NCBI GenBank assembly: GCA_026386845.1
Contig: JAPLMW010000001.1
Span: 1 to 57,275, forward strand
Direction of reading: 5' to 3'
Length of the DNA stretch: 57,275 nt
DNA from: Phycisphaerae bacterium
GTDB taxonomy: Bacteria; Planctomycetota; Phycisphaerae; Sedimentisphaerales; UBA12454
This document shows, in pieces, positions 24,133 through 43,143 of the stretch (position 1 is the first letter of the stretch; each line of letters begins with the position of its first letter). The notes under the pieces were generated by a model, which was not told the origin of the DNA, made no database searches, and worked only from the letters and a program-made list of their open reading frames with translations. The position numbers and the translations under genes were made by a program.

Positions 24133-25110
24133 ATGAATCCTGAAAGCCCACGAAGATGCAGTAAAGATGAGCTTGGCGAAACTCTCGCTATGCTGGATTC
24201 CATATTTCACAGCACAAGACCGCGAAGAATGGGGAAATATTATCCTTATGCCTATGGTGACGGCAATCTGGATAATATGAGAATAATCAAAATAAATAAA
24301 AAAATTGTATCTCACGCTGCGATATATCAAAGGATAGTTAATACTGCCGATGGTCTATTATTAAAAATAGGCTGTATAGGCGGTGTAGCCACATTGCCTG
24401 ACTATAGGGGGAAAGGTTATGCTACGATAATTTTAAATGATTGTATAAAAAAGATGGAGAAAGAAGATTATGACATCTCTATTCTTTGGACCGGCACCCC
24501 GGAATTTTACAGAAAGCTTGGATGGGAATGGGCAGGAAAAGAATGCTGGTTTAATTTAAATAGCGGCAATGTTTTTCTTCTTCCGGCGTATGATAAAAAA
24601 AGCACGTTGGAAACAAGCATCGATGATTATTCACAAATAAGGGAAATTTACGAAAAGAAACTTTTGCGGTCTGAGCGCAAGCCCGATGATTATCCCCTGT
24701 TATTTAACAGGCAAAGGAAATTATTTTATCAGAGGAATGGTAAAATAACAGCGTATGTTCTTATCAGCGATGAAAACGGTGTTCTTGAGTACGGCGGTGA
24801 GACCTATGCGGTTCTGTCGATTCTGCGGAGACTAATCGAGCAGAAAGATTTTCCGTCGTTGAAGATGTTTATACCGCTGCAGGACGACGGTCTGTCAAAC
24901 TGCCTTGAGAAATTAAATTTCCCCAAAAGTTCATCTTATATGGGTATGATTCGTGTCATAAATCAGGAAAAATTTTTAAAGAAATTCGGAGCAAAAGCGG
25001 TAGAAAGCTGTTCTTCGGACAGGCTAATCAAGTTGTTTTTTGGGCCGGAAAAAGTATCAGATAAATCCGCACCGCTGGTGTTCTATCTCTGGCAAACGGA
25101 GCATATGTGA
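24133..25110 (+). CDS. GNAT-family N-acetyltransferase (Eis-like)
   Basis: This 325-residue cytoplasmic protein has a GNAT acetyl-CoA motif in the first 120 residues: GGVATLPDYRGKGYATIIL with the RGKGYA pyrophosphate loop. FYRKLGWEWAGKECWF follows, as in Eis-type enzymes. The C-terminal half (about 150-325) is a second, diverged lobe, which also fits the multi-domain Eis architecture. The substrate is unknown. It lies 9 nt after the esterase and its stop overlaps the next start, so it is tightly cotranscribed with glycan genes. Acetylation of an amino sugar is one possibility. Confidence 0.8.
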   Translation: MNPESPRRCSKDELGETLAMLDSIFHSTRPRRMGKYYPYAYGDGNLDNMRIIKINKKIVSHAAIYQRIVNTADGLLLKIGCIGGVATLPDYRGKGYATIILNDCIKKMEKEDYDISILWTGTPEFYRKLGWEWAGKECWFNLNSGNVFLLPAYDKKSTLETSIDDYSQIREIYEKKLLRSERKPDDYPLLFNRQRKLFYQRNGKITAYVLISDENGVLEYGGETYAVLSILRRLIEQKDFPSLKMFIPLQDDGLSNCLEKLNFPKSSSYMGMIRVINQEKFLKKFGAKAVESCSSDRLIKLFFGPEKVSDKSAPLVFYLWQTEHM

Positions 25111-26228
25111 TGATGAGACTGCTTTGTGTTTTAACAGGTTTGTTTATCTGCCGGCAGGCATTGGCGGCCGAGCATATAATTATATCGCATCCTTCGGAAC
25201 AGATATCGGTGTCTTTGCCTGACAGCGATATTTCGGTTCGTCTCGCTGTAAACGGACGAAATATTGTTGACGGTAATGGCAATGTAATAAAACTGAGAGG
25301 TATATATACGCGCGCCGAATGGTTAAGTTCCGAGCGGGAAGTTGAAATGTTTAAAAGCTGGGGCATTAATTTTGTTCGTATTTTGCTGACTTTCGACCCA
25401 AACTACTGGCAGACTGTCAACGACGGCAAAAAGGATATAAATAAGAGATGTATTCTGCTTGAAGAAAACCTCCGCCATATGGACCAGAGAGTTGCGTGGC
25501 TTGAAAAAAATAAAATTTATTTTATGATGGAAATACACTGGCGTGCACTTGGTGTGGAGGACAATCTTGCAAAGCCTGATTTATTGAGCAAACAATGTAC
25601 TCAAATGTATGAGATTCTTGCAAAAAGGTATTCCGGGGCGAACTATCTGATGGGCTTTTGCACATTCAGCGAAATACATATATTGCCGTGTCTTTATAAT
25701 GATTATAACAAAATCCGTGAGGCAATAGTTGATGCGGTTCACAAGGTCGATAAACGGTTTATTGTTTCTTTGACTGGCACATGGTGGGGTTCTGTCGGCA
25801 GTCTCAACGATAAAATATATATTGACAAATCGAATACTATTTATGATTTTCATTTTTATTCGCCTCGCAAATTCACGCATTATAGAACGAGTTATGGTAA
25901 TTTGAGGTATCCCGGCAATATGCCTATCGGCTGGTTAAATGGAGCAAAGCTTGTGGATATTAATTATCTTGGGAAAGAACTAAAGCCGGCAATTGATTTT
26001 TCAAAGAAGTGGAATGTACCGGTTTGGTGTGGAGAATTCGGAGCTTTCAATAACGCTCCGGATAATTCCAGTGACCGCTGGATGCGCGATGTTGTGGAAA
26101 TTTTTGAGAAAAATAGCATATCGTGGATTATATGGAGATGGAAACCGGGCTTGCAGAATGTGCCTGATGTCTGGAAAGAGCTTTGGCAGGGTAAAAACGG
26201 CAATGTAGACACAGCAGCTTGGAGGTAG
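25110..26228 (+). CDS. Second GH5-like glycoside hydrolase, single domain
   Basis: This 372-residue paralogue of the 19729 product shares closely related blocks (IYTRAEWLSSEREVEMFKSW, FCTFSEIH with Glu188, VWCGEFGAFNNAPD with Glu309, SSDRWMRDV). It lacks the chitobiase-like and C-terminal domains. A signal peptide is present (LLCVLTGLFICRQALAA). The ATG at 25110 overlaps the previous TGA; a GTG at 25107 is possible. The two copies probably arose by duplication and differ in domain addition, so they may act on different chain lengths or linkages. An 89-nt gap follows before the GH2 gene. Confidence 0.8.
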   Translation: MMRLLCVLTGLFICRQALAAEHIIISHPSEQISVSLPDSDISVRLAVNGRNIVDGNGNVIKLRGIYTRAEWLSSEREVEMFKSWGINFVRILLTFDPNYWQTVNDGKKDINKRCILLEENLRHMDQRVAWLEKNKIYFMMEIHWRALGVEDNLAKPDLLSKQCTQMYEILAKRYSGANYLMGFCTFSEIHILPCLYNDYNKIREAIVDAVHKVDKRFIVSLTGTWWGSVGSLNDKIYIDKSNTIYDFHFYSPRKFTHYRTSYGNLRYPGNMPIGWLNGAKLVDINYLGKELKPAIDFSKKWNVPVWCGEFGAFNNAPDNSSDRWMRDVVEIFEKNSISWIIWRWKPGLQNVPDVWKELWQGKNGNVDTAAWR

Positions 26229-26317: not shown

Positions 26318-28045
26318 ATGGAGCGAATATTTCAGAAATCAGTCAAACGTACAAGTATCTGTCTTAACGGTCAATGGAATATAACTTTTGACCCGGATAA
26401 TACGGGTTTGCAAAAAGGGTATCATCGCGGAGAAAACCCCTCCAAGGATGTTTCGTATGTTCCTTCCTGTTGGAATTTACAGTTACATAAATTCGATTAT
26501 TTTGGAGTTGTGTGGTACTCAAGAAAATTTACGACGGTTATAAGTTCCAACAGCCGACTGATATTTCATGCTGTCAGCGGTCAGGCGGTCGTTTATCTGG
26601 ACGGCAAAGAGCTTGGACAGCATTATGGCAGTTATAATAAGTTCTGGTTCGACATTCCCCATCTGTCGGCTGGCGAACATTTGCTCGTCGTTAAGGTTGA
26701 TAATGCTATTAATGACGAAGACACGATGCCTCTACGGTTTGTTGACTGGTTTGTCTGGGGCGGCATATATCGTAGCGTTGAGCTTGAACAGTTTAGTAAT
26801 CTCTCGATTGACAAAATTCACATTGATACCGAATGGGATGGTTTAAAAGTCTCAGGGGTTAATGTTAAGGTTCAGGTAAAAAACTGGACAGATAAGGAAA
26901 TTACCGACGATTTTTCTCTCGAGATGGAATCGACAGGGAAAACGGTTAAAAAGATAACCATATCGCCTGGTTCGGTTCAGGACGTCAGTTTTACATTGAA
27001 AGATTTTAAACCCATTCTCTGGGACACCGAAAATCCGCATCTTTATATGGTGCATATCAGCTGCGGTACAGATGACCTCTATGAGCGAACAGGCTTTCGA
27101 AAAATTGAAACGAAAAATAACAGGATTTTGCTTAACGGAAAAGAAATTTTTATCAAGGGCGTTAATCGGCATAATGACCACCCGGAACTCGGATACGCCA
27201 TAGATGCATCGCTTATTCTGCGGGATATGCAGATAATAAAGGATTTGGGTGCCAATGCAATCAGAGGCAGTCATTATCCTAATGACCCGATTGTTATGGA
27301 TTATTGCGACCAGATGGGTTTGCTGTTTTGGGAAGAGCTTGCGTTCTGGAATCATCCTGCTCATTCTCTGGCCAAGCCGCTGCTTCATCAGCGTGCCTTG
27401 CAGATGGCTCGTGAAATGATAGAACGCGACTATAATCATCCCTCTATTATTATCTGGAGCATTCAGAATGAGTCCAAGTCGAGCTCTCAGGAAGGGTTGG
27501 ATTTGTTTTCGAAAATTGCCGCCCAGATGCGTCAAATGGACATCTCAAGACTCCTAAGTTACGCTTCGGCCTGTGGTAAAAACGATATATGTTTTGACCT
27601 TGTTGATATTGTCTGCTGGAATATGTATCCCGGCTGGTATGACGATGATGAACCGCTGGATAATCTTGATAAAAGATTTGCCCTGAAGTTACAAGATGCC
27701 AGAAACTGGCTGACCGAACATAAACAACTTAAACCTTTTATGATAACTGAATTTGGAGCCGCGGCATTATTAGGCGAGACAACATTCGAAGGAGGAAGAC
27801 GATATACCGAAAATTATCAGCAGAAACTGCTCGAAAAAGCCATTAAGGGTCTTATTGACTCCAAAGTAGTACAGGGTTTCTTTATCTGGCAATTCTGTGA
27901 CGGGAGGACCGCATTGCCCAGCAAAATATCGATTGGCAGACCCCGAAGCTTCAACAACAAGGGAATTGTCGATGAATACAGAAGACCTAAACTTGCATAT
28001 TATACCGTTAGAGATTTGCTGCACAAAATTTCAACTTATAGATAA
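26318..28045 (+). CDS. GH2 family glycoside hydrolase (beta-galactosidase/glucuronidase/mannosidase type)
   Basis: This 575-residue protein has the three-domain GH2 core: a jelly-roll sugar-binding domain (about 15-155), an Ig-like domain (about 160-258) and a TIM barrel (about 262-575). The motif [15 protein letters not shown] is present. The probable acid/base is Glu385 in WSIQNES and the nucleophile Glu478 in MITEFGA, the latter closest to beta-glucuronidases. There is no signal peptide, so it probably acts on imported oligosaccharides. It is short for a LacZ (over 1000) but normal for UidA-like enzymes (about 600). Its exact sugar cannot be read. Confidence 0.9.
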
Positions 28046-28055
28046 GGATTTGTAT

Positions 28056-29075
28056 ATGTCTGATGTGAAGACCGGATTATCGAACAAAACAACAATACTT
28101 AACGGGAATCTTCCCAATCTTCCATGGGAAGACAAACCAGTCAAGTGCGTGGATGTGGTCTGGCGTTACAGTGGAAATCCTGTGATACCGCGTGATTTAA
28201 TTGCCTGTTCTAACAGCATATTTAATAGTGCCGTCGTTAGTTTTAAGAAGGGATTTGCCGGAGTTTTCCGGGTGGATACAAAAGCAAGGAATATGCGTAT
28301 TCATCGCGGCTTCAGCAAAGACGGCATACATTTTCAATTAGATAATGAGCCGATAAAATTTATATGTGATGAACCTGAAATAGCCGACTTTGTTGAAGGT
28401 TATGACCCTCGTGTCTGCTGGATTGAGGATCGTTATTATGTTACCTGGTGTAACAGGTATCATGGGCCGACAATAGGCGTTGCCTATACGTATGATTTTG
28501 AAAAGTTTTATCAGCTCGAAAATGCGTTTCTACCGTTTAACAGAAATGGAGTTTTGTTCCCGCGAAAAATCAATGGCAAATATGTTATGTTAAGCCGTCC
28601 GAGCGACAATGGCCATACGCCTTTTGGAGATATATTCTGCAGCGAAAGCCCCGATATGATTCACTGGGGCAGACATCGTCATGTCATGGCTCCAATAAAC
28701 AATAAACTTACCTGGCAATGCACTAAAATCGGCCCAGGCCCCATTCCTATTGAAACGACACATGGCTGGCTATTGATTTATCACGGGGTATTAACAAGCT
28801 GTAACGGCTTTGTCTATAATATGGGAGCGGCTATATTGGATATAGATAAACCATGGAAGGTTCTCTATCGCTGTAAAACATATCTTTTAAACCCGCAGAA
28901 GATATACGAATGTGTTGGCGATGTGCCCAATGTGGTATTTCCCTGTGCTGCCCTGCATGATGCCCCCACGGGGCGAATTGCATTATATTATGGCTGTGCG
29001 GATACGGTAACAGGTCTGGCTTTTTGTTATGTTGATGAACTTATTGATTATATAATTTCAAATTCTGAAGTCTGA
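28056..29075 (+). CDS. GH130 family protein (mannosyl-oligosaccharide phosphorylase type)
   Basis: The start at 28056 follows AAGGA and lies 10 nt after the GH2 stop. An upstream in-frame extension to 27897 lies wholly within GH2 and is rejected. The 339-residue product has the five-bladed propeller pattern of GH130: GNPVIPRDL near the N-terminus, the probable catalytic Asp in [11 protein letters not shown], then WLLIYHGVL and [10 protein letters not shown]130 enzymes split beta-mannosides by phosphate, giving mannose-1-phosphate; a few hydrolyse instead. No signal peptide. Its presence points to a mannose-containing glycan such as mannan or the Man-GlcNAc core of N-glycans. Confidence 0.85.
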
Positions 29076-29077
29076 TT

Positions 29078-30268
29078 ATGAACTCGCAGCATACTGTAAA
29101 GGCCGATGTTCAAATCCTCCCAATTACACAGGGACCAGCATATCATTGGTTTGGCTATTATGACAAATCTCAGTTTGACCCTGCAGGCAGATATATATTA
29201 GGTATGGAAGTTGGTTTTCAGCACCGTAGGCCGAAACCGGATGATGTAATAAAAATCGGGATGATTGACCTTAACGATAACAACCGCTGGATAGAACTTG
29301 GCGAGTCCTGTGCCTGGTGCTGGCAGGCAGGTTGTATGCTGCAATTCAGGCCAAATTCCCAGTCTGAAATAATGTGGAACGACCGCCAGGGCGATAAATT
29401 CATCTGTAAGATTCTTGACATAAAGACTGGTCGGCTCAGGAAACTTCCATTTGCGTTTTTTACAGTTCACCCGAATGGGAAAACCGCTCTGGGGCTGGAT
29501 TTTGAAAGACTTGAATATATGCGCCCCGGTTATGGTTATGCCGGTGTGAAAGACAGGAATAATGATATTATGGCTCCTGAAGATGCCGGCATATACTTAT
29601 TAGATTTGGACTCAGGCGCAAAAAAGTTAATTATATCACTTGCTGATATTGCACGGATACCTCATCCGACAAAAAGTTTTGTTGACTGCAAGCATTACTT
29701 TAATTGTCTTTTATTTAACCCATCGGGTTCGAGGTTTGCATTTTTGCATCGATGGAGAACCGAAAGAGGGCAAGGCTGGCCGTTCAAGACCAGATTTATG
29801 ACAGCTAATCCTGACGGCAGCGATGTCAATGTTCTTGTTCCGGGCGGATGCGGGCATTTCAACTGGCGGGATTCAGAACATCTGGTTGTTCAGGTGGATG
29901 GTTTTACAATATACAAAGACAAATACGGAGAAGTTGGAAAAATCAGACAAGGTGTGCTGCCGAATTCAGGCGGTCATCTCTCATATTTCCCCGACAAAAA
30001 CTGGATAGTCGGCGATACCTATCCTGATGAACGAAGGTATCAAAAACTTTATCTTTACAATATTACAAAAAATCTTCTTGTATGGCTCGGAGAATTCTAT
30101 TGTTCAAAAGAATATACCGGCAATATGTCCGGCAAAGAAGATGACGAATGGCGATGCGACCTTCATCCTCGTATAAGTCCTTCCGGACGAAGTATTGTTA
30201 TAGATTCTGCCCATGAAAATAATGGGAGGCAGATGTATCTGGTTAATGTTGGACAAATACTAATGTAA
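29078..30268 (+). CDS. TolB-like beta-propeller protein, possibly lyase-like
   Basis: This 396-residue protein of unknown function starts two bases after the GH130 stop. Its repeats, such as HWFGYYDKSQFDPAGRYILG and HPRISPSGRSIVIDSAHEN, are WD40/TolB-type blades, and about six or seven can be counted. The His-rich positions (HYFNCLLFNPSG, GHLSYFP) and the Arg before SPSG resemble oligogalacturonate-lyase-like (PL22) propellers. That is a structural resemblance only. No signal peptide is seen, so it is probably cytoplasmic. Its place between GH130 and the importer suggests action on imported sugars. Confidence 0.65.
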   Translation: MNSQHTVKADVQILPITQGPAYHWFGYYDKSQFDPAGRYILGMEVGFQHRRPKPDDVIKIGMIDLNDNNRWIELGESCAWCWQAGCMLQFRPNSQSEIMWNDRQGDKFICKILDIKTGRLRKLPFAFFTVHPNGKTALGLDFERLEYMRPGYGYAGVKDRNNDIMAPEDAGIYLLDLDSGAKKLIISLADIARIPHPTKSFVDCKHYFNCLLFNPSGSRFAFLHRWRTERGQGWPFKTRFMTANPDGSDVNVLVPGGCGHFNWRDSEHLVVQVDGFTIYKDKYGEVGKIRQGVLPNSGGHLSYFPDKNWIVGDTYPDERRYQKLYLYNITKNLLVWLGEFYCSKEYTGNMSGKEDDEWRCDLHPRISPSGRSIVIDSAHENNGRQMYLVNVGQILM

Positions 30269-30297: not shown

Positions 30298-33200
30298 TTG
30301 AGAAAAATATTAACATATTTTTTGGGATTATTTGGAGCGACAGTTCTTTTTATTCTGTCGGTTCTTCTTTCCGCTTTTGTCGTATCTCCCAGTAGCGAAA
30401 TTATAGAAAACAAATATGACCCGAATTATATAGCCGCTGTTCAGGAATCCCGCAAGACTATAATAGATGTCAATAATCCGCCCGTTTTTTACCGTGAGGT
30501 TGACTATTCCAAAGGTAAAAAGGCAAAATGGTATCCCAAGAATCAATCACCCATTTTAAAAGCGTTGGAGCAGGAAGGTTTGCTTGGACCGGTAGAGGAG
30601 AGAGTCGGACCGGAACCTCTCGTTGTTGAGGGTGTTGAAGGAATTGGGAGATACGGGGGAACCTGGCACATGCTTACCACAGAAGTTTCAATGGCGGAAA
30701 TAGGTCATCGATTATCGTATGTTACTCTTGTCAGGTGGTCAAGCCAGGGATATCCGATAGTTCCGCACCTGGCGAAGAGTTACGAAATTTCTGAAGATAA
30801 TCGCCAGTTCACATTTCATCTTCGTAAAGGTGTTAAATGGTCAGACGGCCATCCTTTCACAGCGGATGATATTATGTTCTGGTGGAAATATGTTGCCAAT
30901 GATAAATCTGTTATGCCGGGTGTACCGGAAATAATGAAAGTTCGCGGCCAGTCAGGCGCCATTGAAAAAATAGACGATTACACAATCAGATTTACTTTCC
31001 CATTCCCGAATGGAGTATTTCTCGCAAAACTTGCTTCTGATGCGAGCGTGGACAATATGGTAAATAGTCCCGCGCACTATCTTTCAAAGTATCATCCGTC
31101 AATCGGCAACAAGGATTTGATAAATCAGACACTGCGAGCCAGCCGAATACAAAATAATGCCGCCTTATTCAGGAGTATCTTTAATAGTATATTAAACTAT
31201 CCTGATAAACCGACCTTATGGCCATGGATATACCGCAAGTATAGAGCGTCTCCGCCCCAGAGTTTTGTTCGTAATCCGTATTACTGGATGGTTGATGCCG
31301 AAGGCAATCAGTTGCCGTACATAGACAGGATTGTCTTCGAACAAAAAAGCCCCGGTATGATTCCAATTGCCGCCGCTAACGGTGAAGTAACTATGCAGCT
31401 AAGATTCATTCCTTATGAAGAATATACTCATCTAATGAGTCAGCAGCAGCAGGGGGGCTATACTGTATATCACTGGTATCCCGGCGATAGGAGTATGTTT
31501 GTCATAGCTCCCAACCTTAATTATAAAATAGAGACGAATAAACCAGAGACAGTTTACAAGCATCAATTGCTGAATGACAAAAGGTTCAGGCAGGCTCTCT
31601 CGTTAGCCATAGACAGGAAAAAACTTATTGATGCTGAATACAGCGGTCAAACCGAACCTGCTCAATGCGCACCCGGCCCCTCATCTTTTTTCTATCACGA
31701 AGGTTTTTATAGAAGTTTCACAGACTATGACCCTCAAAGAGCAGCCGGTCTTTTGGATGAAATAGGATTAGTAAAGAGAGATTTTGAGGGTTATCGCACA
31801 TTTTCAGACGGCAGCCGAATGACTTTTTATTTGAATGTGGCAAGCGGTTTCAGCAGCGCTGGAATGGCCCAGCTGGTCTGCGACTGCTGGTCGAATATCG
31901 GCCTTAGAGTAATTCCGCGAATACGCAACAGCGGGTTGTTTTATACGGAAAAAATGGCTTTGAGACATGATTTGGATGTCTGGGTAGGGAACAGCGAATT
32001 TGTGCCTGTAATGGAGCCCAGATATTTTGTGCCGAGTACATCAGCCAGTCACTTTGCAATCGGCTATTCAAAATGGTATCTGATGGGCGGTCTTTACAAT
32101 AATCCTGCCGCGGCTTCTGCGGGATGTATAGAGCCGCCTTACGGACATCCCTGTAGGGAAGTTATGAAATTATATGATTTGGCGTGTACTTTTAGTGACA
32201 GGCAGAAACAAAAAGAAGTTTTCGATAAAATATTCAATGTAAATCAGGAAAATTTGTGGACTATAAATATCTCCACACCTCCTCCTGTGATTGTTATTGT
32301 AAAAGATGGATTAAGAAATGTTCCAAAGTTTGCGGTTGCTTGCTGGATGTTCAGGACGCCGGGAAATGCCGGAATAGAGACTTATTTCTTCGATAAGCCG
32401 AATGACCCGCCAAGTGTAATCGAGGAAATCAAAGACTCAATGATACATATCAAAATGCCTGACAGGCTGGGGTTGATTTCCAAAAGCAATACCGGAGCAG
32501 TTAAAAGCCAGTCGGGCAGAATCGCCGCAGGGGTTGTTAAATATCTGTTTTGGGCGGTATTTTTCCTTTTGATTTTACTTGCCGTTGTAAGGCATCCTTA
32601 TATCGGGAAAAGATTTTTAATAATGATTCCTACTCTGCTTGTAATGTCTATCGTAATTTTTACGATAATTCAGCTTCCGCCCGGCGATTATCTTACAACG
32701 AGAATTATGATGCTTGCTGAACAGGGGGATTCGAGCTCTGTACAGGAACTGGCAGACCTTAAAAAAATGTTCTGGCTTGATGAGCCTGTGTGTATCAGAT
32801 ATATAAAATGGATGGGGCTGCCCTGGTTTATAAGTTTTAATCCATCTGATACGGGTCTTCTTCAGGGTAATCTCGGCCGGTCTATGCAGACCGGGCAGCC
32901 TGTGAACGATATTGTCGGTGACAGGATAATTCTGACAGTGATTCTCTCATTAGGGACAATCCTTTTTACGTGGGCTGTTGCAGTGCCTGTGGGGATTTAT
33001 TCCGCTGTTAAGCAGTACTCCATAGGTGATTATATTTTGACATTTCTGGGATTTATTGGGATGTGCATCCCGTCTTTTTTATTAGCCTTGATTTGTATGT
33101 ATTTAGGGAAAAAATATCTTGGAATTTCTTTTTCCGGATTATTTTCAAGCCGCTACGGTGCTCAGCCGCAATGGGACTGGTTTAAGTTTCTTGATTTGCT

Positions 33201-33624
33201 GAAACATATATGGCTTCCAATTTTTGTCATCGGTCTTGAGGGGACTGCCGGAATGGTGAGGGTAATGCGAGGCAATCTGCTTGATGAGTTGCGAAAACCT
33301 TATGTTGTTACTGCAAGGGCAAAAGGCGTCAGACCTATGAAATTACTTTTTAAATATCCGGTAAGGCTTGCTTTGAATCCATTCGTTTCCGGGATAGGTG
33401 CGTTGTTCCCAAACCTTATTTCCGGCGGTGCTATTGTGGCAATGGTTCTCAGCCTTCCGGTTGTAGGACCGTTAATGCTCGATGCCCTGTTAACGGAAGA
33501 TATGTATCTGGCTGGTTCGATGCTTATGGTTTTAAGTCTGCTGGGAGTATTTGGCACTCTGGTGAGTGATTTATTATTATTATGGCTTGACCCGAGAATA
33601 AGGTTTACCGGCGGTACAAGATGA
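30298..33624 (+). CDS. Oligopeptide-type ABC importer: solute-binding protein fused to DppB-type permease
   Basis: The 1108-residue protein begins with TTG and a membrane anchor (about 5-30). Residues 110-730 are an SBP_bac_5 solute-binding domain (HLRKGVKWSDGHPFTADDI, RFRQALSLAIDRKKLIDAEY). A helix at about 737-760 leads into a DppB/YejB-type permease (about 770-1108) ending with its EAA-like loop RAKGVRPMKLLFKYPVRLAL. Normally these are two proteins; here the binding protein is tethered to the membrane by fusion to the transport pore. The gene overlaps dppC-like by 4 nt (ATGA). Dpp/Opp-type systems import oligosaccharides in some bacteria, which fits the glycan context. Confidence 0.88.
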   Translation: MRKILTYFLGLFGATVLFILSVLLSAFVVSPSSEIIENKYDPNYIAAVQESRKTIIDVNNPPVFYREVDYSKGKKAKWYPKNQSPILKALEQEGLLGPVEERVGPEPLVVEGVEGIGRYGGTWHMLTTEVSMAEIGHRLSYVTLVRWSSQGYPIVPHLAKSYEISEDNRQFTFHLRKGVKWSDGHPFTADDIMFWWKYVANDKSVMPGVPEIMKVRGQSGAIEKIDDYTIRFTFPFPNGVFLAKLASDASVDNMVNSPAHYLSKYHPSIGNKDLINQTLRASRIQNNAALFRSIFNSILNYPDKPTLWPWIYRKYRASPPQSFVRNPYYWMVDAEGNQLPYIDRIVFEQKSPGMIPIAAANGEVTMQLRFIPYEEYTHLMSQQQQGGYTVYHWYPGDRSMFVIAPNLNYKIETNKPETVYKHQLLNDKRFRQALSLAIDRKKLIDAEYSGQTEPAQCAPGPSSFFYHEGFYRSFTDYDPQRAAGLLDEIGLVKRDFEGYRTFSDGSRMTFYLNVASGFSSAGMAQLVCDCWSNIGLRVIPRIRNSGLFYTEKMALRHDLDVWVGNSEFVPVMEPRYFVPSTSASHFAIGYSKWYLMGGLYNNPAAASAGCIEPPYGHPCREVMKLYDLACTFSDRQKQKEVFDKIFNVNQENLWTINISTPPPVIVIVKDGLRNVPKFAVACWMFRTPGNAGIETYFFDKPNDPPSVIEEIKDSMIHIKMPDRLGLISKSNTGAVKSQSGRIAAGVVKYLFWAVFFLLILLAVVRHPYIGKRFLIMIPTLLVMSIVIFTIIQLPPGDYLTTRIMMLAEQGDSSSVQELADLKKMFWLDEPVCIRYIKWMGLPWFISFNPSDTGLLQGNLGRSMQTGQPVNDIVGDRIILTVILSLGTILFTWAVAVPVGIYSAVKQYSIGDYILTFLGFIGMCIPSFLLALICMYLGKKYLGISFSGLFSSRYGAQPQWDWFKFLDLLKHIWLPIFVIGLEGTAGMVRVMRGNLLDELRKPYVVTARAKGVRPMKLLFKYPVRLALNPFVSGIGALFPNLISGGAIVAMVLSLPVVGPLMLDALLTEDMYLAGSMLMVLSLLGVFGTLVSDLLLLWLDPRIRFTGGTR

Positions 33625-34766
33625 TAAATGAGTTAGAAAATAACGATGCTCAGACGCAGGACACATCAATCGCTACAAAATCGCAGTGGCAGTTGATAAG
33701 GGGGCGTTTTGTCCGGCACAGGCTGGCCGTTATCGCCTTTTTCTTTGTGCAGATTCTTTATTTAATTGCTATTTTCGCCGATTTTTTCTCGCCTTATACA
33801 GCTCAGTTGCAAGATATAGGTTATTCTTATTGTCCGCCTCAAATCCCTAAGTTTAGCTTTAAAAACGGGTTATATGTGTATCCTGTGGAGCTTTTTACGG
33901 ACCCGCTTACCTTCCGAAAAAGTTACCATGAAAACAGAAATGGAATAATCAAACTTTCATTATTTGCCGAAGGACCTAAGTATAAATTTTTTGGCCTGTT
34001 TGAATGTAACAGACATTTGATTGGAATTAAGAAAGCCGGGACAGATAAAAATATAATTGGGGAAGCTACCAGATTTTATTTGCTCGGTGCCGATAAATAT
34101 GGAAGAGATATCTTAAGCAGGATTATTTACGGTGCGAGGATATCTCTTTCAGTTGGAGTCATAAGTATAATAATAACGTTTCTTTTTGGTGTTACTGTCG
34201 GCGGAATATCCGGGTATATAGGCGGAGCGATCGATAACTTTATCCAGAGAACGATCGAAATTATAAACTCTATTCCGAAACTGCCGTTGTGGCTGGCCTT
34301 TTCGGCGGTCCTGCCCGATGACTGGTCTTCGCTTAGAATTTATTTCAGTATAACTCTTCTTTTAAGTCTTCTTGGCTGGACAGGCCTGGCAAGAGTCGTT
34401 CGTGGAAAACTTTTGTCTCTTCGTGAGGAAGATTATGCCGTAGCCGCTTATCTGCTTGGCGCCAGTCATAAAAGAATAATTTTCAAGCATCTTCTGCCCG
34501 GGTTCACAAGTCATATTATTGTCTCTCTGACTATGACTGTTCCGTGGATGATACTTGGCGAGACATCCCTGAGTTTTCTTGGGCTGGGATTGCGTCCTCC
34601 GATTGTAAGCTGGGGCGTTATGCTGCAGGACTGTATGAATATGACGACAGTAGCTAATTATCCATGGCTTCTGTTGCCGGTTGTTTTCATAATTTTCACC
34701 GTTTTGTGCTTTAATTTTATGGGCGACGGCTTAAGAGATGCTTCTGACCCATATTCGGCAGGATAA
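33621..34766 (+). CDS. DppC/YejE-type ABC permease
   Basis: This 381-residue inner-membrane protein is the second permease of the importer. It has an N-terminal membrane segment (about 30-53), a long periplasmic stretch (about 54-160) with LLGADKYGRDILSRIIYGAR, then the permease core. The core has the ATPase-contacting loop YLLGASHKRIIFKHLLPGF. The extra periplasmic loop resembles YejE more than DppC. The start overlaps the previous stop by 4 nt, implying translational coupling with the fused SBP-permease. Confidence 0.92.
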   Translation: MINELENNDAQTQDTSIATKSQWQLIRGRFVRHRLAVIAFFFVQILYLIAIFADFFSPYTAQLQDIGYSYCPPQIPKFSFKNGLYVYPVELFTDPLTFRKSYHENRNGIIKLSLFAEGPKYKFFGLFECNRHLIGIKKAGTDKNIIGEATRFYLLGADKYGRDILSRIIYGARISLSVGVISIIITFLFGVTVGGISGYIGGAIDNFIQRTIEIINSIPKLPLWLAFSAVLPDDWSSLRIYFSITLLLSLLGWTGLARVVRGKLLSLREEDYAVAAYLLGASHKRIIFKHLLPGFTSHIIVSLTMTVPWMILGETSLSFLGLGLRPPIVSWGVMLQDCMNMTTVANYPWLLLPVVFIIFTVLCFNFMGDGLRDASDPYSAG

Positions 34767-34767
34767 A

Positions 34768-35796
34768 ATGATTGATAATAAAGATTATGTATTAACCATT
34801 GATGGCCTTAAGACTTATTTTGAGGTTGACCATAGTGTTGTTAAAGCTGTTGATGATGTAAGCCTGAAAATTGAAAGGGGTAAAACTCTGGCAATTGTCG
34901 GAGAGAGCGGGTGCGGAAAAAGCGTAACTGCTTATTCAATTTTAAAACTTATACAAAAACCGGGGAAAATCATCGGCGGTAAAATCGTTCTCTATCCTTC
35001 CAATGGAAAAGCAATTAATATTTCAGAGCTGAACGAAAGGTCGGAATTATTGTATCACGTCAGGGGCGGATACATAAGTATGATATTTCAGGAGCCTATG
35101 ACGGCTTTGAGCCCGGTGCATACAATAGGCAATCAGATTTGTGAAGCGGTTTTACTTCACTCTAAAACAAAAATCTCCCGGAAATGTGCCGAAGAAATGG
35201 CTGTTGAAATGCTTAATAAAGCAGGCATGCCAAATTCTCAGGCGAGAATAAGGCAATACCCGCATGAAATAAGCGGCGGTATGCGGCAAAGAGCGGTTAT
35301 TGCAATGGCTATGATTACGAACCCTGAGTTATTAATCGCTGATGAGCCGACAACGGCTTTGGATGTTACTATTCAGGCACAGATTATAGAACTGATGAAA
35401 AAGCTTCAGAATGAATACAGAACTGCCATAATGCTTATTACTCATGATTTTGGAGTTGTTGCCCAAACTGCGGATGAAGTGGCGGTGATGTATCTAGGAA
35501 ATATTGTAGAGCAGGCTTCCGTTAGAGAAATTATTAAAAATCCTATGCATCCTTATACAATTGCCCTGCTTGGTTCTTTGCCTGGTATAGGTCGCATAGG
35601 CAAAAGACTTGCCCCTGTCAGAGGTTCGGTGCCTGACCCGTTAAGAAGACCTCAGGGCTGCACATTCCATCCCAGATGTGAATATGCCGAAAAAGGCTTA
35701 TGTGATGTCGGGTTAATACCTGGACTTGAAGAAGTTATTAATGGCCATAAAGTTGCCTGCCGCAGAGTGAAAGAAATTCGGAAAAATGGAAAATAA
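34768..35796 (+). CDS. DppD-type ABC transporter ATPase
   Basis: The start at 34768 (GGATAAA just before) lies one base after the permease stop; an in-frame start at 34738 overlaps that gene and is less likely. The 342-residue ATPase has Walker A GESGCGKS, signature SGGMRQRAVIAMAM, Walker B LLIADEPTTALD and the oligopeptide-transporter C-terminal Cys motif (GCTFHPRCEYAEKGLC), which binds an iron-sulfur cluster in some DppD proteins. It powers the importer as a pair with the next ATPase. Confidence 0.94.
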   Translation: MIDNKDYVLTIDGLKTYFEVDHSVVKAVDDVSLKIERGKTLAIVGESGCGKSVTAYSILKLIQKPGKIIGGKIVLYPSNGKAINISELNERSELLYHVRGGYISMIFQEPMTALSPVHTIGNQICEAVLLHSKTKISRKCAEEMAVEMLNKAGMPNSQARIRQYPHEISGGMRQRAVIAMAMITNPELLIADEPTTALDVTIQAQIIELMKKLQNEYRTAIMLITHDFGVVAQTADEVAVMYLGNIVEQASVREIIKNPMHPYTIALLGSLPGIGRIGKRLAPVRGSVPDPLRRPQGCTFHPRCEYAEKGLCDVGLIPGLEEVINGHKVACRRVKEIRKNGK

Positions 35797-36772
35797 AAAT
35801 ACAATTTTAAGCGTTAAAGATTTGTGTAAATATTTCCCTGTTTATGGTAAGGGATTTTTTACCAGAATAACAGGTTATATTAAAGCAGTTGACAATATAA
35901 GTTTTGATTTATTTGAGGGCGAGACTTTCGGCCTTGTCGGCGAGAGCGGATGCGGGAAAACTACCGCGGCAAGAACGATTCTCAGGGCCTTGTCGCCTAC
36001 TGCCGGCAGGGTTATTTTTAAAACCGGCGATACCGTTGTGGATTTGGCTTCAATGCCCGAAAATCTGTTAAAGTCATTCAGGCCAAAGATGCAGATGATT
36101 TTCCAGGACCCGTTTTCGTCGCTGAATCCGCGTATGACTGTCGGCAATATAGTAGGCGAACCATTAGTTATTCATAAAATGGCGAAAGGCAGACAATTAA
36201 CAGACAGAGTGAAACAGCTTCTTGCCAGGGTGGGCCTCAGCAGTGAATATATCAACAGATATCCGCATGCTTTCAGCGGAGGACAGAGACAGCGAATCGG
36301 AATTGCCCGCGCGTTAATAATGTATCCTTCTCTGATTATCGCGGATGAAGCGGTTTCGGCTCTTGATGTTTCGGTTCAGGCTCAAATTCTGAATTTACTT
36401 ATGGACATTCAGGACGAATTTAATCTTACATATATTTTTGTTTCTCATAACCTTGGCGTTATACGCTGTATTTGTGATCGCGTTGCGGTGATGTATGCGG
36501 GCAGAATCGTGGAAATGGCGGCAACCGAAGAGTTATTTAGGAATCCCTTGCATCCTTACACTAAAGCGCTTTTATCTGCAATACCATATCCTGACCTGGA
36601 TATTAAACTGAATGCGGTTTTGACAGGTGAGACTATCGATCTTGCCGAGCTGCCCCATGGATGTAATTTTGAATCTCGCTGCCCATATCGAACAACAGAC
36701 TGTCTATGCTGTGTACCTGAGCTTAAAAAAGTTGATGATAACCATTTTGTAGCCTGCCTGCTTAAAAACTGA
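35786..36772 (+). CDS. DppF-type ABC transporter ATPase
   Basis: This 328-residue ATPase overlaps the previous gene by 11 nt. Walker A GESGCGKTTAARTIL, signature FSGGQRQRIGIARAL and Walker B LIIADEAVSALD are intact. The terminal Cys-rich motif (GCNFESRCPYRTTDC) is present too. With the 34768 product it forms the heterodimeric motor of the importer. This is the last gene of the long plus-strand array; it converges on the UroD-like gene with a 23-nt gap and no clear terminator. Confidence 0.94.
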   Translation: MENKNTILSVKDLCKYFPVYGKGFFTRITGYIKAVDNISFDLFEGETFGLVGESGCGKTTAARTILRALSPTAGRVIFKTGDTVVDLASMPENLLKSFRPKMQMIFQDPFSSLNPRMTVGNIVGEPLVIHKMAKGRQLTDRVKQLLARVGLSSEYINRYPHAFSGGQRQRIGIARALIMYPSLIIADEAVSALDVSVQAQILNLLMDIQDEFNLTYIFVSHNLGVIRCICDRVAVMYAGRIVEMAATEELFRNPLHPYTKALLSAIPYPDLDIKLNAVLTGETIDLAELPHGCNFESRCPYRTTDCLCCVPELKKVDDNHFVACLLKN

Positions 36773-38937: not shown

Positions 38938-39843
38938 TTGAAGCCGACATTATTGATTATTGCTGCAGGCATGGGCAGCCGATATGGAGGTCTCAAACAA
39001 ATAGACCCCGTTGGACCCAATGGCGAGATAATAATCGATTATTCTATGTATGATGCCGTCAGGGCCGGGTTTGAAAAAATAGTTTTTGTTATCAGGCACT
39101 ATTTCGAAGAAGCATTCAGAGAAAAAATAGGAAGCAAACTGGACGGCATTGCTCAAACCGCTTATGCATACCAGGAATTAGATTCGTATCTTGACGGATT
39201 TCCGCTGCCTGCCGGCAGGGACAAGCCTTGGGGAACAGGACATGCTATTTTGGTCGCTAAAGATGTAATAAATGAACCTTTTGTAGTCATTAACGCTGAT
39301 GATTATTATGGCATTAATTCATATAAGATTATGAAAGGATATCTCAGTGGCAGCGGGGGCGATAACAATGATTATTGTATGGTCGGTTATACGCTTGGCA
39401 ATACACTTTCTGAATATGGATATGTTTCCCGCGGGATTTGCCGGTGCGATGAGAATATGTATCTGAAATCAGTTACTGAGATAAAAAAGATAATTAAGAA
39501 TAAGCAATGTGCAATTTTCACAGATGAAACCGGACAACAGCAGACATTAAGCGGCAATGAAGTTGTTTCAATGAATCTGTGGGGATTTCAGCCGGATATT
39601 TTTGAACATCTTCGAAGACAATTCAAAGATTTTCTTGTTGAGCACGGTAAAGAGCAGAAAAGCGAGTTTTATATTCCAGGTGCAGTTGATAGGCTCGTAG
39701 CTTCAAAACAAAAAAGAGTAAGGATTTTGCGTACTGAGGACAGCTGGTTCGGCGTTACATATAAGGAAGACAAACAAATAGCTCAGAATTGCATACAGAG
39801 ATTAATTGAGCGGGGAATTTATCCGCACAGGCTTTGGAAATAA
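38938..39843 (+). CDS. Sugar-1-phosphate nucleotidyltransferase-like protein
   Basis: This 301-residue protein starts with TTG after GGAAG. It has the nucleotidyltransferase signature AAGMGSRYGGLKQIDPVG, then WGTGHAILVAKD and the metal-binding VINADDYYG. These enzymes couple a sugar-1-phosphate to an NTP. The next gene encodes a sugar kinase that would supply the sugar-1-phosphate. Which sugar and NTP are used cannot be read; GlcNAc-1-P or mannose-1-P from GH130 are candidates. Confidence 0.85.
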   Translation: MKPTLLIIAAGMGSRYGGLKQIDPVGPNGEIIIDYSMYDAVRAGFEKIVFVIRHYFEEAFREKIGSKLDGIAQTAYAYQELDSYLDGFPLPAGRDKPWGTGHAILVAKDVINEPFVVINADDYYGINSYKIMKGYLSGSGGDNNDYCMVGYTLGNTLSEYGYVSRGICRCDENMYLKSVTEIKKIIKNKQCAIFTDETGQQQTLSGNEVVSMNLWGFQPDIFEHLRRQFKDFLVEHGKEQKSEFYIPGAVDRLVASKQKRVRILRTEDSWFGVTYKEDKQIAQNCIQRLIERGIYPHRLWK

Positions 39844-39845
39844 CT

Positions 39846-40964
39846 ATGAATTACAAGGCTGATTATTTAAAGAATATTTGTGCGAAATTTCTGATAGAAG
39901 GAGAATTCGTAAATTCAAAGCCTTACGGCAGCGGTCATATAAACGATACTTATGCGGTTACATTCAGGCAGGCTTCCAATACAAAAAGATACATATTGCA
40001 GCGTATTAACAATACGATTTTTACTGATGTGCCGGGTTTAATGAATAATATTGTCAGGGTTACGAAACATATAAGAGATAAATTGGAAAAGCAGAAAGCG
40101 GATGATATTGCGCGAAAGGTATTGACTGTTGTATCCACCGCCAAAGGAAACAGCTATTATGGGGATACAGATGGTAATTTTTGGCGGATGTATATATTTA
40201 TTGAAAAAGCTCGAACTTATGATGTTCCTGAATCTTTAGAGCAGATTTATGAGGCTGCAAGAGCATTCGGCAATTTTCAGCAGATGCTTATAGATTTACC
40301 TCAGCCTGCGCTTATAGAGACAATTCCTGATTTTCATAATGCTCTCAAACGACTTGAAGTTTTTAAGAATGTCTTGAATGCTGATGTGTGCAATCGTGCT
40401 AAAGATATTAAAGAGGAAGTCGAATTTCTACATAAAAATGAACAGATTTTTTATACTTTGTCAGGGCTGATTAAAACAGGTCAGATTCGCATCCGTATAA
40501 CGCATAACGATACCAAGGTAAATAATGTTTTGATGGATGGTGATACAGGCAGAGGTATTTGCGTTATAGACCTTGATACAGTTATGCCGGGATTGAGTTT
40601 ATATGATTTTGGTGATATTATCCGTACCAGTATAAGCTCTGCCGCGGAGGATGAGCGTAATTTATCGAAAGTAATGATGGAAATGCCTCGATTTGAAGCT
40701 GTATTGAAAGGTTATCTTGCATCAGCGGGAAAATTTCTTAATAAAACTGAATTGGAGAATCTGATTTTAGGCAGTAAATACATTACATTGGTAATAGGTA
40801 TGCGTTTTCTGACAGATTATCTCAATGGCGATAAGTACTTTAAGATACACAGAGAGGGGCATAATCTTGATCGCTGCCGGACGCAGTTTAAACTGGTTGA
40901 TTCGATAAATAAGCAGGAAGATGAGATGATGTTATTGGTCAAGGAAAATTACTATGCCGGTTAG
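39846..40964 (+). CDS. APH-family kinase, N-acetylhexosamine 1-kinase (NahK)-like
   Basis: I take the ATG at 39846, two bases after the previous stop and preceded by GGAAA, over a TTG at 39834. The 372-residue protein has the aminoglycoside-phosphotransferase kinase fold. SGHINDTY lies near the N-terminus. The catalytic loop is THNDTKVNNVLMD and the metal loop is VIDLDTVMPGLSLYDFGD. This combination is typical of NahK-like anomeric kinases, which make N-acetylhexosamine-1-phosphate. Tight linkage with the nucleotidyltransferase before it and the deacetylase after it supports a sugar-activation role. A choline or homoserine kinase-like role is less likely. Confidence 0.78.
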   Translation: MNYKADYLKNICAKFLIEGEFVNSKPYGSGHINDTYAVTFRQASNTKRYILQRINNTIFTDVPGLMNNIVRVTKHIRDKLEKQKADDIARKVLTVVSTAKGNSYYGDTDGNFWRMYIFIEKARTYDVPESLEQIYEAARAFGNFQQMLIDLPQPALIETIPDFHNALKRLEVFKNVLNADVCNRAKDIKEEVEFLHKNEQIFYTLSGLIKTGQIRIRITHNDTKVNNVLMDGDTGRGICVIDLDTVMPGLSLYDFGDIIRTSISSAAEDERNLSKVMMEMPRFEAVLKGYLASAGKFLNKTELENLILGSKYITLVIGMRFLTDYLNGDKYFKIHREGHNLDRCRTQFKLVDSINKQEDEMMLLVKENYYAG

Positions 40965-41035
40965 AATTATTTCAGCAGTTGAAAAATAGGTTTTATCAAA
41001 TCTTATACAACTTACAACTTTTTGGAGAAATAGAA

Positions 41036-41884
41036 ATGCAGCAGGAAATTGAAATTGTCCGTCTTGTTGGAGATGAACGAAGAGCAGGCCCGACACTTGA
41101 AAGTGTTTCGCGTCACTGGCAGAAAGATAAGGAACATTTTCTGTTTATAAGCCCGCATGATGATGATGTGGTTCTGGGTGGTGGACTTTTAATTCAGCTT
41201 GCAATTCGTGAAAAAGTGCCTGTGCATATATTGATTGTGACTGATGGCAGTATGGGATATTGCAGCAGGGAAGATAGAGACAGTATTTCTGAGATTCGCA
41301 GGAAGGAAACTTATAAATGTTATGAATCACTTGGTATTCCAATGGAGAATATTATCTGGCTCGGATTTCCTGACTGTCAATTGAATTCATATCGAGGCAG
41401 GTATTTAGCGAAAAGTGGTCAAAAACCGGCGATAGAAGGTTTTGCGGGGCTTCAAAATGCTTTTACTTATTATTTAAGGAAGATTTGTCCAACACAGTGT
41501 TTTTTGCCTACTTCCAACGACCTGCATCCTGACCATGAGATAGTGCATTCTGAATTTCTTATCAGTATGTTTCATTCGGCAGGCAGTATCTGGCCTGAAT
41601 TGGGCAAGCCTGTAGAAAAGGTTCCATACATTCATGAAATGGGCATATATTGTGATTTTCCTGTGCCGCCCCGGCTTAGAATAAAAACACCGGAGTCATA
41701 TTTGGAAAATAAATTGGGCGCAATTTCAGCTTTTAAATCCCAAAAACAGATTGCTTCTCTGGTGGCTGTCGTCAGAAAATCCGGACCGTATGAATATATC
41801 AATTCGCTGGACTTCAGACTTTATCAGCCGGGTAAATACTACGACCTGTTTGAGCAAAGACACCACATACCATTTACCCGATAA
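41036..41884 (+). CDS. PIG-L/LmbE-family deacetylase
   Basis: The ATG at 41036 with GGAG upstream gives 282 residues; a frame extension to 40979 is unlikely. The metal-binding motif SPHDDDVVLGGG (about 39-50) and the later LHPDHEIVH are both present, as in zinc-dependent N-acetylglucosaminyl deacetylases (MshB, PIG-L, BshB). The substrate is probably an N-acetylated sugar or sugar conjugate. It follows the NahK-like kinase by 71 nt, which links deacetylation to amino-sugar metabolism. Confidence 0.85.
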   Translation: MQQEIEIVRLVGDERRAGPTLESVSRHWQKDKEHFLFISPHDDDVVLGGGLLIQLAIREKVPVHILIVTDGSMGYCSREDRDSISEIRRKETYKCYESLGIPMENIIWLGFPDCQLNSYRGRYLAKSGQKPAIEGFAGLQNAFTYYLRKICPTQCFLPTSNDLHPDHEIVHSEFLISMFHSAGSIWPELGKPVEKVPYIHEMGIYCDFPVPPRLRIKTPESYLENKLGAISAFKSQKQIASLVAVVRKSGPYEYINSLDFRLYQPGKYYDLFEQRHHIPFTR

Positions 41885-42457: not shown

Positions 42458-43136
42458 TTCAAGGTGGACGACACCGCGTTTTGAATCGGCATCGAGACTT
42501 GCCTTTTTAATTGTGTCGTAAAGCTGTCTTGGTCTGTGGACTTTTTCAAACCTGAATTCAGGGTCGCTTTTGTCAGTCGTAGTCAGCACAACCGTGCCTA
42601 TGCCGACCAGGGAATCAGAAAAACTCCGGGATAAACGCAGGTCGATTACGCGGAACATATCAATATTGTCTATTTGCTTTGCAAAAATACCCCTTGCCCA
42701 CTCGACCCTGTCGGTAGTTATGCGGTAGCGAATGCTTTTAAGTTTGATAATTTTGCAGAAGAGAATCAGCAACGCCGCGGCTATTATTGAAATTCCTATG
42801 ATGGTTCTGTATTTTTCCGTAAGGGCAATCGCGTTTGCGGAAAGTTTGAAATCAGTAAGCAGCTTATTTACCGGCCAGAACGCCAGAAAATACATAACCG
42901 CAAGCAAAATAGCCGTTTTCAGAAAACTCGGCGTAAGTACCCACATCGAAGGCGAAGCCTCGAAAAGAGGTTCTGCTTTTTCCGCATCCTTTTGTTCAGG
43001 ATTTTGGGCAGGCGATTTGACGGGCCGATTCAGGAATTCGCCGCAGTAGCGGCACTTTATCGCCGCGGCCATCACAATAGGGACATTGTTTTGTGCCCTG
43101 CGGCAAACCAACGCCTGATGGATAGTTTTCAGACAT
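42455..43136 (-). CDS. PH-domain (bPH2/YdbT-like) membrane protein with N-terminal zinc ribbon, frameshifted
   Basis: The ATG at 43136 lies 8 nt after ftsK. It opens a frame with MSENYPSGVGLPQGTKQCPYC, the first half of a zinc ribbon. The second half (AIKCRYCGEF) and the rest lie in another frame that is open from 43111. A frameshift near 43085-43070 therefore separates the two. The remainder has two membrane helices (about residues 60-120 of the 43111 frame) and a bacterial PH domain (RYRITTDRVEWARGIF, RFEKVHRPRQLYDTI). It resembles membrane proteins of the DUF304/bPH2 type. The shift may be real decay or a sequencing error. Confidence 0.72.
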
Positions 43137-43143
43137 ACTCAGC

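Follow-up and report, generated by a model that had tools for sequence, protein, structure and literature searches.

MalE-MalF of Bdellovibrio bacteriovorus has a sugar solute-binding protein (SBP) joined to one member of a heterodimeric permease pair, with a single binding domain per transporter; it belongs to the maltose (CUT1) family, not to Opp/Dpp, and GlnPQ of Lactococcus lactis likewise belongs to another SBP and permease family than the fusion described here. A further fused SBP-permease chain, OpuF, appears in the reference list of the paper on EgtU (PMC9732360). In the Opp/Dpp family, Escherichia coli DppB has been described as forming a periplasmic scoop from the loop after its first transmembrane helix, which touches the binding protein DppA (PMC12136057). 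Free SBP is, according to the account given for maltose and histidine, usually present in 30 to 50-fold excess (PMC9045158). SPH1118 of Sphingomonas sp. A1, annotated as a peptide binder, is described as binding pectin and hardly yeast extract or tryptone (PMC9314435).

The window analysed here, i.e. the whole stretch of DNA of 57,275 nucleotides, holds a gene in which a solute-binding domain and an OppB/DppB-type permease form one protein (Table 1). We consider it likely that this gene and those that follow it specify an Opp/Dpp-family ABC importer (type I), in which the SBP and the first permease form one tethered chain and the cargo is a sugar.

Table 1. Features of the fused gene and its neighbourhood in the window.
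Feature	Coordinates	Strand	Basis
GH5 glycoside hydrolase gene	25107..26228	+	Pfam
GH2 glycoside hydrolase gene	26318..28045	+	Pfam
GH130 family (mannoside phosphorylase) gene	27897..29075	+	Pfam PF04041, E 8e-70
396-aa protein, family-less	29078..30268	+	Pfam, NCBIfam, PDB comparison, synteny
Fused gene: solute-binding domain, linker, TM0, OppB/DppB-type permease; 1108 aa	30298..33624	+	ORF, Pfam, homologues
N-terminal hydrophobic segment, residues ~8-30	30319..30387	+	hydropathy, N-terminus list
Solute-binding domain, residues 81-700	30538..32397	+	end-to-end alignment with 5IPW and SPH1118
SBP_bac_5 Pfam core	30757-31995	+	Pfam
Variable periplasmic linker (predicted), residues ~701-743	32398..32526	+	alignment, hydropathy
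TM0, additional membrane helix, residues ~744-764	32527..32589	+	hydropathy, comparison with relatives
Short basic turn RHPYIGKR, TM0 to permease helix 1	32590..32613	+	homologue comparison
OppB/DppB-type permease domain incl. periplasmic scoop segment after helix 1	32614..33624	+	Pfam, NCBIfam, alignment
OppC-type second permease (OppC_N + BPD_transp_1)	33621..34766	+	ORF, Pfam, NCBIfam
OppD-type ATPase (ABC_tran + oligo_HPY); start possibly 34768	34738..35796	+	ORF, Pfam
OppF-type ATPase (ABC_tran + oligo_HPY)	35786..36772	+	ORF, Pfam

Architecture of the fused subunit

The fused gene is a single open frame with a TTG start, upstream of which no Shine-Dalgarno-like stretch was seen; its translation runs through the joint between the two domains without a stop, and the joint recurs in 48 fused proteins including that of the window, which bears out the in-frame fusion proposed in an earlier note on this DNA. 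Pfam places SBP_bac_5 at residues 154-566 (E 2.4e-56; 191.9 bits against a cut-off of 32.4), BPD_transp_1_N at residues 769-883 (E 2.5e-5) and BPD_transp_1 at residues 895-1102 (E 8.7e-27). The permease is thus complete, as that note had claimed, and the one additional helix by which the note had the two domains joined is found by hydropathy: TM0 is strongly hydrophobic at about residues 746-764 and lies immediately N-terminal to permease helix 1 (773-791). Binding domain and permease hence reside in one polypeptide, as in importers of the GlnPQ and EgtU kind. The N-terminal hydrophobic segment is preceded by basic residues and has neither a lipobox nor a clear AxA; it is probably an uncleaved anchor. 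The topology of the fusion was assigned from hydropathy and charge; an AlphaFold prediction from two rows (the window and L003) reached a mean pLDDT of 32.5 and was not used.

The position of TM0 can be related to the topology of DppB. Since the DppB scoop after helix 1 is periplasmic, the N-terminus of DppB lies in the cytosol; with the SBP in the periplasm, the fused chain would therefore need one more crossing, which TM0 would supply. The scoop segment is present in the fusion: in an alignment read by eye, the E. coli DppB contact E41 corresponds to E808, and R42 is replaced by Q809.

The joint is conserved in a characteristic manner. An [RK][HYF]P turn directly follows TM0 in 45 of the 48 fused proteins, the others having RSP (two) or HHA (one) at this position. 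In these 45 proteins with the turn, the hydropathy of TM0 is at least 1.78 with one exception (L067, where it is weak, 1.01), and the ten residues C-terminal to TM0 contain two to four Lys/Arg and no Asp/Glu in all 45. The DppB proteins compared from relatives with separate genes start directly at permease helix 1, without TM0, and no C-terminal helix was found in the separate SBPs of these relatives; TM0 and the fusion therefore go together, and the additional helix, acquired together with the fusion, would be a topological fix.

The linker N-terminal to TM0 varies in length and sequence (34-80 aa where a script could measure it, which was in 38 of 45 fused homologues). This variability would also be expected if the chain were cut in the linker, the SBP then being free in the periplasm and the fusion merely fixing a 1:1 ratio. 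We regard such a cut as rather unlikely: a four-row alignment showed no conserved cleavage site, and TM0 and the conserved turn would stay on the permease without obvious use. A chain that stays intact is the reading followed below.

The remainder of the importer

Downstream of the fusion follow a second, OppC-type permease and two ATPases. The start of the OppC-type gene overlaps the stop of the fusion by four bases (ATGA); the overlap of the OppD-type gene at 34738 holds for the longest start only and would be removed by the internal ATG at 34768. Of the earlier description of an importer remainder that follows with overlaps, the genes and the first overlap hence stand, and the OppD overlap depends on the choice of start. 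The set comprises an SBP_bac_5 domain, two different BPD_transp_1 permeases, the second with OppC_N, and two oligo_HPY-tailed ATPases, as is typical of Opp/Dpp-type importers. As far as genes alone can tell, the separate OppC-type permease at 33621 sets the system apart from the homodimeric pore of the GlnPQ kind.

For all subunits, the best-scoring NCBIfam models are those of Opp/Dpp. No score reached the curated cut-off of the Opp1-Opp4, Dpp and Nik equivalogs, the best being Opp4B (200.4 versus 450) and Opp4C (273.6 versus 350).

Distribution and origin of the fusion

The first homologue with the same architecture was encountered on a contig of a Verrucomicrobiota metagenome-assembled genome (MAG) at 50% identity; two genomes from other families within the same order carry the fusion at ~60-75% identity. 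An architecture survey, which the earlier note had asked for, was then carried out by genome draws from one class and two phyla. Of the 397 genomes drawn from the class, 24 have a match at E<=1e-40 and 19 of these are fused, including one completed from the same-order search (G028) and one split over two contigs (G183); G173, G119, G397, G241 and G076 match and were not counted as fused. The phylum draw yielded 13 matching genomes out of 392, eight of them fused (five of the eight already in the class draw), with G407, G412, G479, G541 and G579 matching and not counted. For the phylum of the Verrucomicrobiota MAG, the figures are 27 of 337 and 21, respectively; here, G962, G1049, G1071, G849, G907 and the short fragment G1023 match without being counted. 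Together, the three draws contain 43 distinct fused genomes. All 47 genomes listed for the phylum of the MAG are absent from the earlier draws, which fits a second phylum without proving it. A survey of SBP_bac_5 in 120 genomes of the class found no frame longer than 792 aa among the matches listed, which omit the fused type itself; it leaves room for independent fusions. In a search of plasmids, 1567 records match, of which 459 cover at least 80% of the query, and the three that were inspected have separate genes.

Several loci differ in detail. In one of the two single-contig genomes with the fusion (G222), OppD and OppF homologues share one 709-aa frame adjoining the SBP-permease fusion (L068:3834-5963), and the importer may consist of three polypeptides only. 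In the other (G180; L069, L070), the fusion stands at the end, behind OppC, OppD and OppF, which differs from the other loci. One fused protein (L123:1459-4081) lacks the permease part beyond about residue 120 of 348, through either decay of the gene or faulty assembly. A long N-terminal extension is seen in separate SBP-like proteins of 1044-1145 aa (L081:5286-8687, L082:7966-11100, L083:13075-16512), whose match is confined to approximately the last 400 residues.

In two permease trees and one SBP tree, a single branch separates all fused rows from the others: 29 of 55 rows in the first permease tree (support 99), 47 of 64 in the second (support 99) and 47 of 58 in the SBP tree (support 100). 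The trees are of the quick kind without bootstrap, unrooted and with long-branch warnings; from the second permease tree, L003 and L119 (the same gene as L102), the truncated L123, L032 and most far OppB rows were dropped. The nearest rows outside the fused group are mostly adjacent pairs of separate SBP and DppB genes. These trees are most simply read as a fusion gained once, though this is not proven, and the fusion appears to be an old, conserved family with an origin that looks single rather than a one-off.

The same data bear on whether two ordinary neighbouring genes were merged by a missed stop or a frameshift. The window makes up one of the 96 contigs of a draft genome, and separate, adjacent SBP and DppB genes do exist in relatives; against an artefact, however, stand the 48 proteins with the same joint, whose helix and basic turn are absent from the separate genes, the occurrence of the fusion in single-contig genomes and the one fused group on permease and SBP trees alike. 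We assign this explanation a negligible probability, since conservation of the joint in independent genomes removes the doubt about a sequencing error.

Gene neighbourhood and putative cargo

The closest solved proteins are 5IPW of Thermotoga maritima (E 1.1e-95 with the whole fusion as query) and SPH1118 (E 5.3e-76), both aligning end to end with residues 81-700 of the fusion (~600 residues and E 2.4e-76 for SPH1118). The designation 'DppB-type' given in the earlier note thus holds for the fold of the permease and fails for the binding domain, which groups with the polysaccharide binders SPH1118 and 5IPW, not with dipeptide binders. In an alignment read by eye, two of the seven SPH1118 pectin contacts are kept in the window (R496 as R575, W594 as W683); R438 falls in a gap, and R466, N53, R57 and D483 are replaced by S, A, H137 and W562, respectively. 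Because only two of seven ligand residues are kept, homology does not give the exact sugar, and the loss argues against pectin itself as cargo.

Upstream of the fusion lie the GH5, GH2 and GH130 genes and the gene of a 396-aa protein (Table 1), and farther upstream a LacI-type regulator, a second GH5 gene, a match to the C-terminal part of rhamnogalacturonan lyase 11 and an esterase-like gene. For the 396-aa protein, neither Pfam nor NCBIfam gives a match, and the PDB none that convinces; it contains YHWFGYYDK near its start, its gene also directly precedes the fusion in the two relatives closest to the window (61-62% identity), and it is perhaps a glycan enzyme. Within the small clade of the window, the GH5, GH2 and 396-aa protein genes are common to the window, L057 and L058; GH130 is found in L058, and no GH130 match in L057. 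GH130 phosphorylases act on beta-mannosides, mostly intracellularly. We read the system as an oligosaccharide importer, and because a GH130 phosphorylase is present in the operon, a beta-mannoside oligosaccharide is the likely cargo in the window and our best guess.

Downstream of the importer (38938-41884), genes for a nucleotidyltransferase, an APH-type kinase and a PIG-L deacetylase follow each other; together with GH130, this row would fit handling of mannose-GlcNAc sugars. The G+C content at 43001-45000 is 0.50-0.52, compared to ~0.42 in the surroundings.

Sugar genes also adjoin other fused loci: GH38 (L003, L062), alpha-galactosidase-like (L003), alpha-L-fucosidase (L075), apiosidase-like (L069), GH2 (L068) and GlcNAc 2-epimerase (L060) genes. 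In one of the six further neighbourhoods that were sampled (L066), the two proteins scanned include no sugar genes. Relatives with separate genes on Rhizobium and Aureimonas plasmids adjoin alpha-L-fucosidase, D-mannonate dehydratase and similar genes.

The family names Opp and Dpp would suggest a peptide importer, as would the subunits' best NCBIfam matches and the deposition of 5IPW as an oligopeptide-binding protein. The sub-cut-off scores, the GH5-GH2-GH130 operon and the reported preference of SPH1118, a binding protein of the same large type, for pectin over peptides (PMC9314435) make this unlikely. If the sugar reading is correct, a protein of 1000-1200 aa from these phyla that is annotated as 'DppB' and has this turn probably belongs to a sugar, not a dipeptide, importer, which could serve as an annotation rule.

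Proposed transport cycle

A tethered sugar importer could operate in the following manner: The N-terminal segment would remain in the membrane, with the binding domain on the periplasmic side and a flexible linker attached to it; TM0 would return the chain to the cytosol, and the permease would then fold as usual. The binding domain may capture an oligosaccharide produced by the nearby glycoside hydrolases. Once loaded, it would dock onto the permease of its own chain together with the OppC partner and pass the sugar on, OppD and OppF hydrolysing ATP during the transfer. In the cytoplasm, the GH130 phosphorylase may cleave the beta-mannoside oligosaccharide. Because only one of the two permeases bears an SBP, each transporter would possess a single binding domain, always close by and without a free SBP pool, in contrast to the usual 30 to 50-fold excess of free SBP for maltose and histidine. 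The fixed one-to-one ratio would allow kinetic models of importers to be tested without such a pool.

The tethered domain might instead act mainly as a sensor or gate (transceptor), while free SBPs feed the pore. Further SBP_bac_5 proteins do occur in these genomes, and SPH1118 is described as doubling as a chemotaxis receptor (PMC9314435); yet the genome of the window has only one other SBP_bac_5 match, on a different contig, and the fusion has the scoop segment by which SBP and pore are coupled, so that we deem this variant very unlikely compared to delivery by the tethered domain itself.

As to why the tether has been kept, the periplasm of planctomycetes can, as reported, be enlarged and take up dextran (PMC5394234). 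If the genome of the window is planctomycetal, as we suspect, the tether would keep the SBP close to the membrane in a periplasm of this kind. A bolder reading, tentative and in our estimate somewhat more probably wrong than right, is that one ancestral fusion gave rise to a distinct class of heterodimeric oligosaccharide importers with exactly one membrane-tethered binding domain in at least two phyla (Verrucomicrobiota and that of the window, possibly Planctomycetota), retained because tethering pays in an enlarged, polysaccharide-admitting periplasm, in which a free SBP would be diluted and a tethered one would stay at the membrane.

Comparison with known systems

Full-text searches of the open-licence literature listed no report of a fusion of SBP_bac_5 to a BPD_transp_1 permease. 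We therefore file the finding as follows: SBP-permease fusions are already known in other importer families, and the Opp/Dpp-family case appears new in that literature. E. coli DppABCDF (PDB 8z1v and others) likewise has heterodimeric permeases, two ATPases, an SBP_bac_5 protein and the scoop after helix 1, but, as described, DppA is separate and does not co-elute with DppBCDF, TM0 is lacking and the substrate is a peptide (PMC12136057). GlnPQ of L. lactis also carries its binding domains covalently before the permease in one chain; its pore is homodimeric, however, with two domains per chain (four sites) and a 14-residue linker between the domains, according to its description (PMC8025302). 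EgtU of Streptococcus pneumoniae is likewise reported to combine permease and binding domain in one chain, but with the permease first, i.e. in reversed order, and it is an osmoprotectant-type relative with another substrate (PMC9732360). SPH1118 and 5IPW are of the same large SBP type as the domain of the window, but were solved as separate soluble proteins, and most of the SPH1118 pectin contacts are lost in the window. MalE-MalF of Bdellovibrio resembles the fusion of the window in that one sugar SBP sits on one of two permeases. With the fusion described here, the Opp/Dpp family would join the importer families that have a tethered binding domain.
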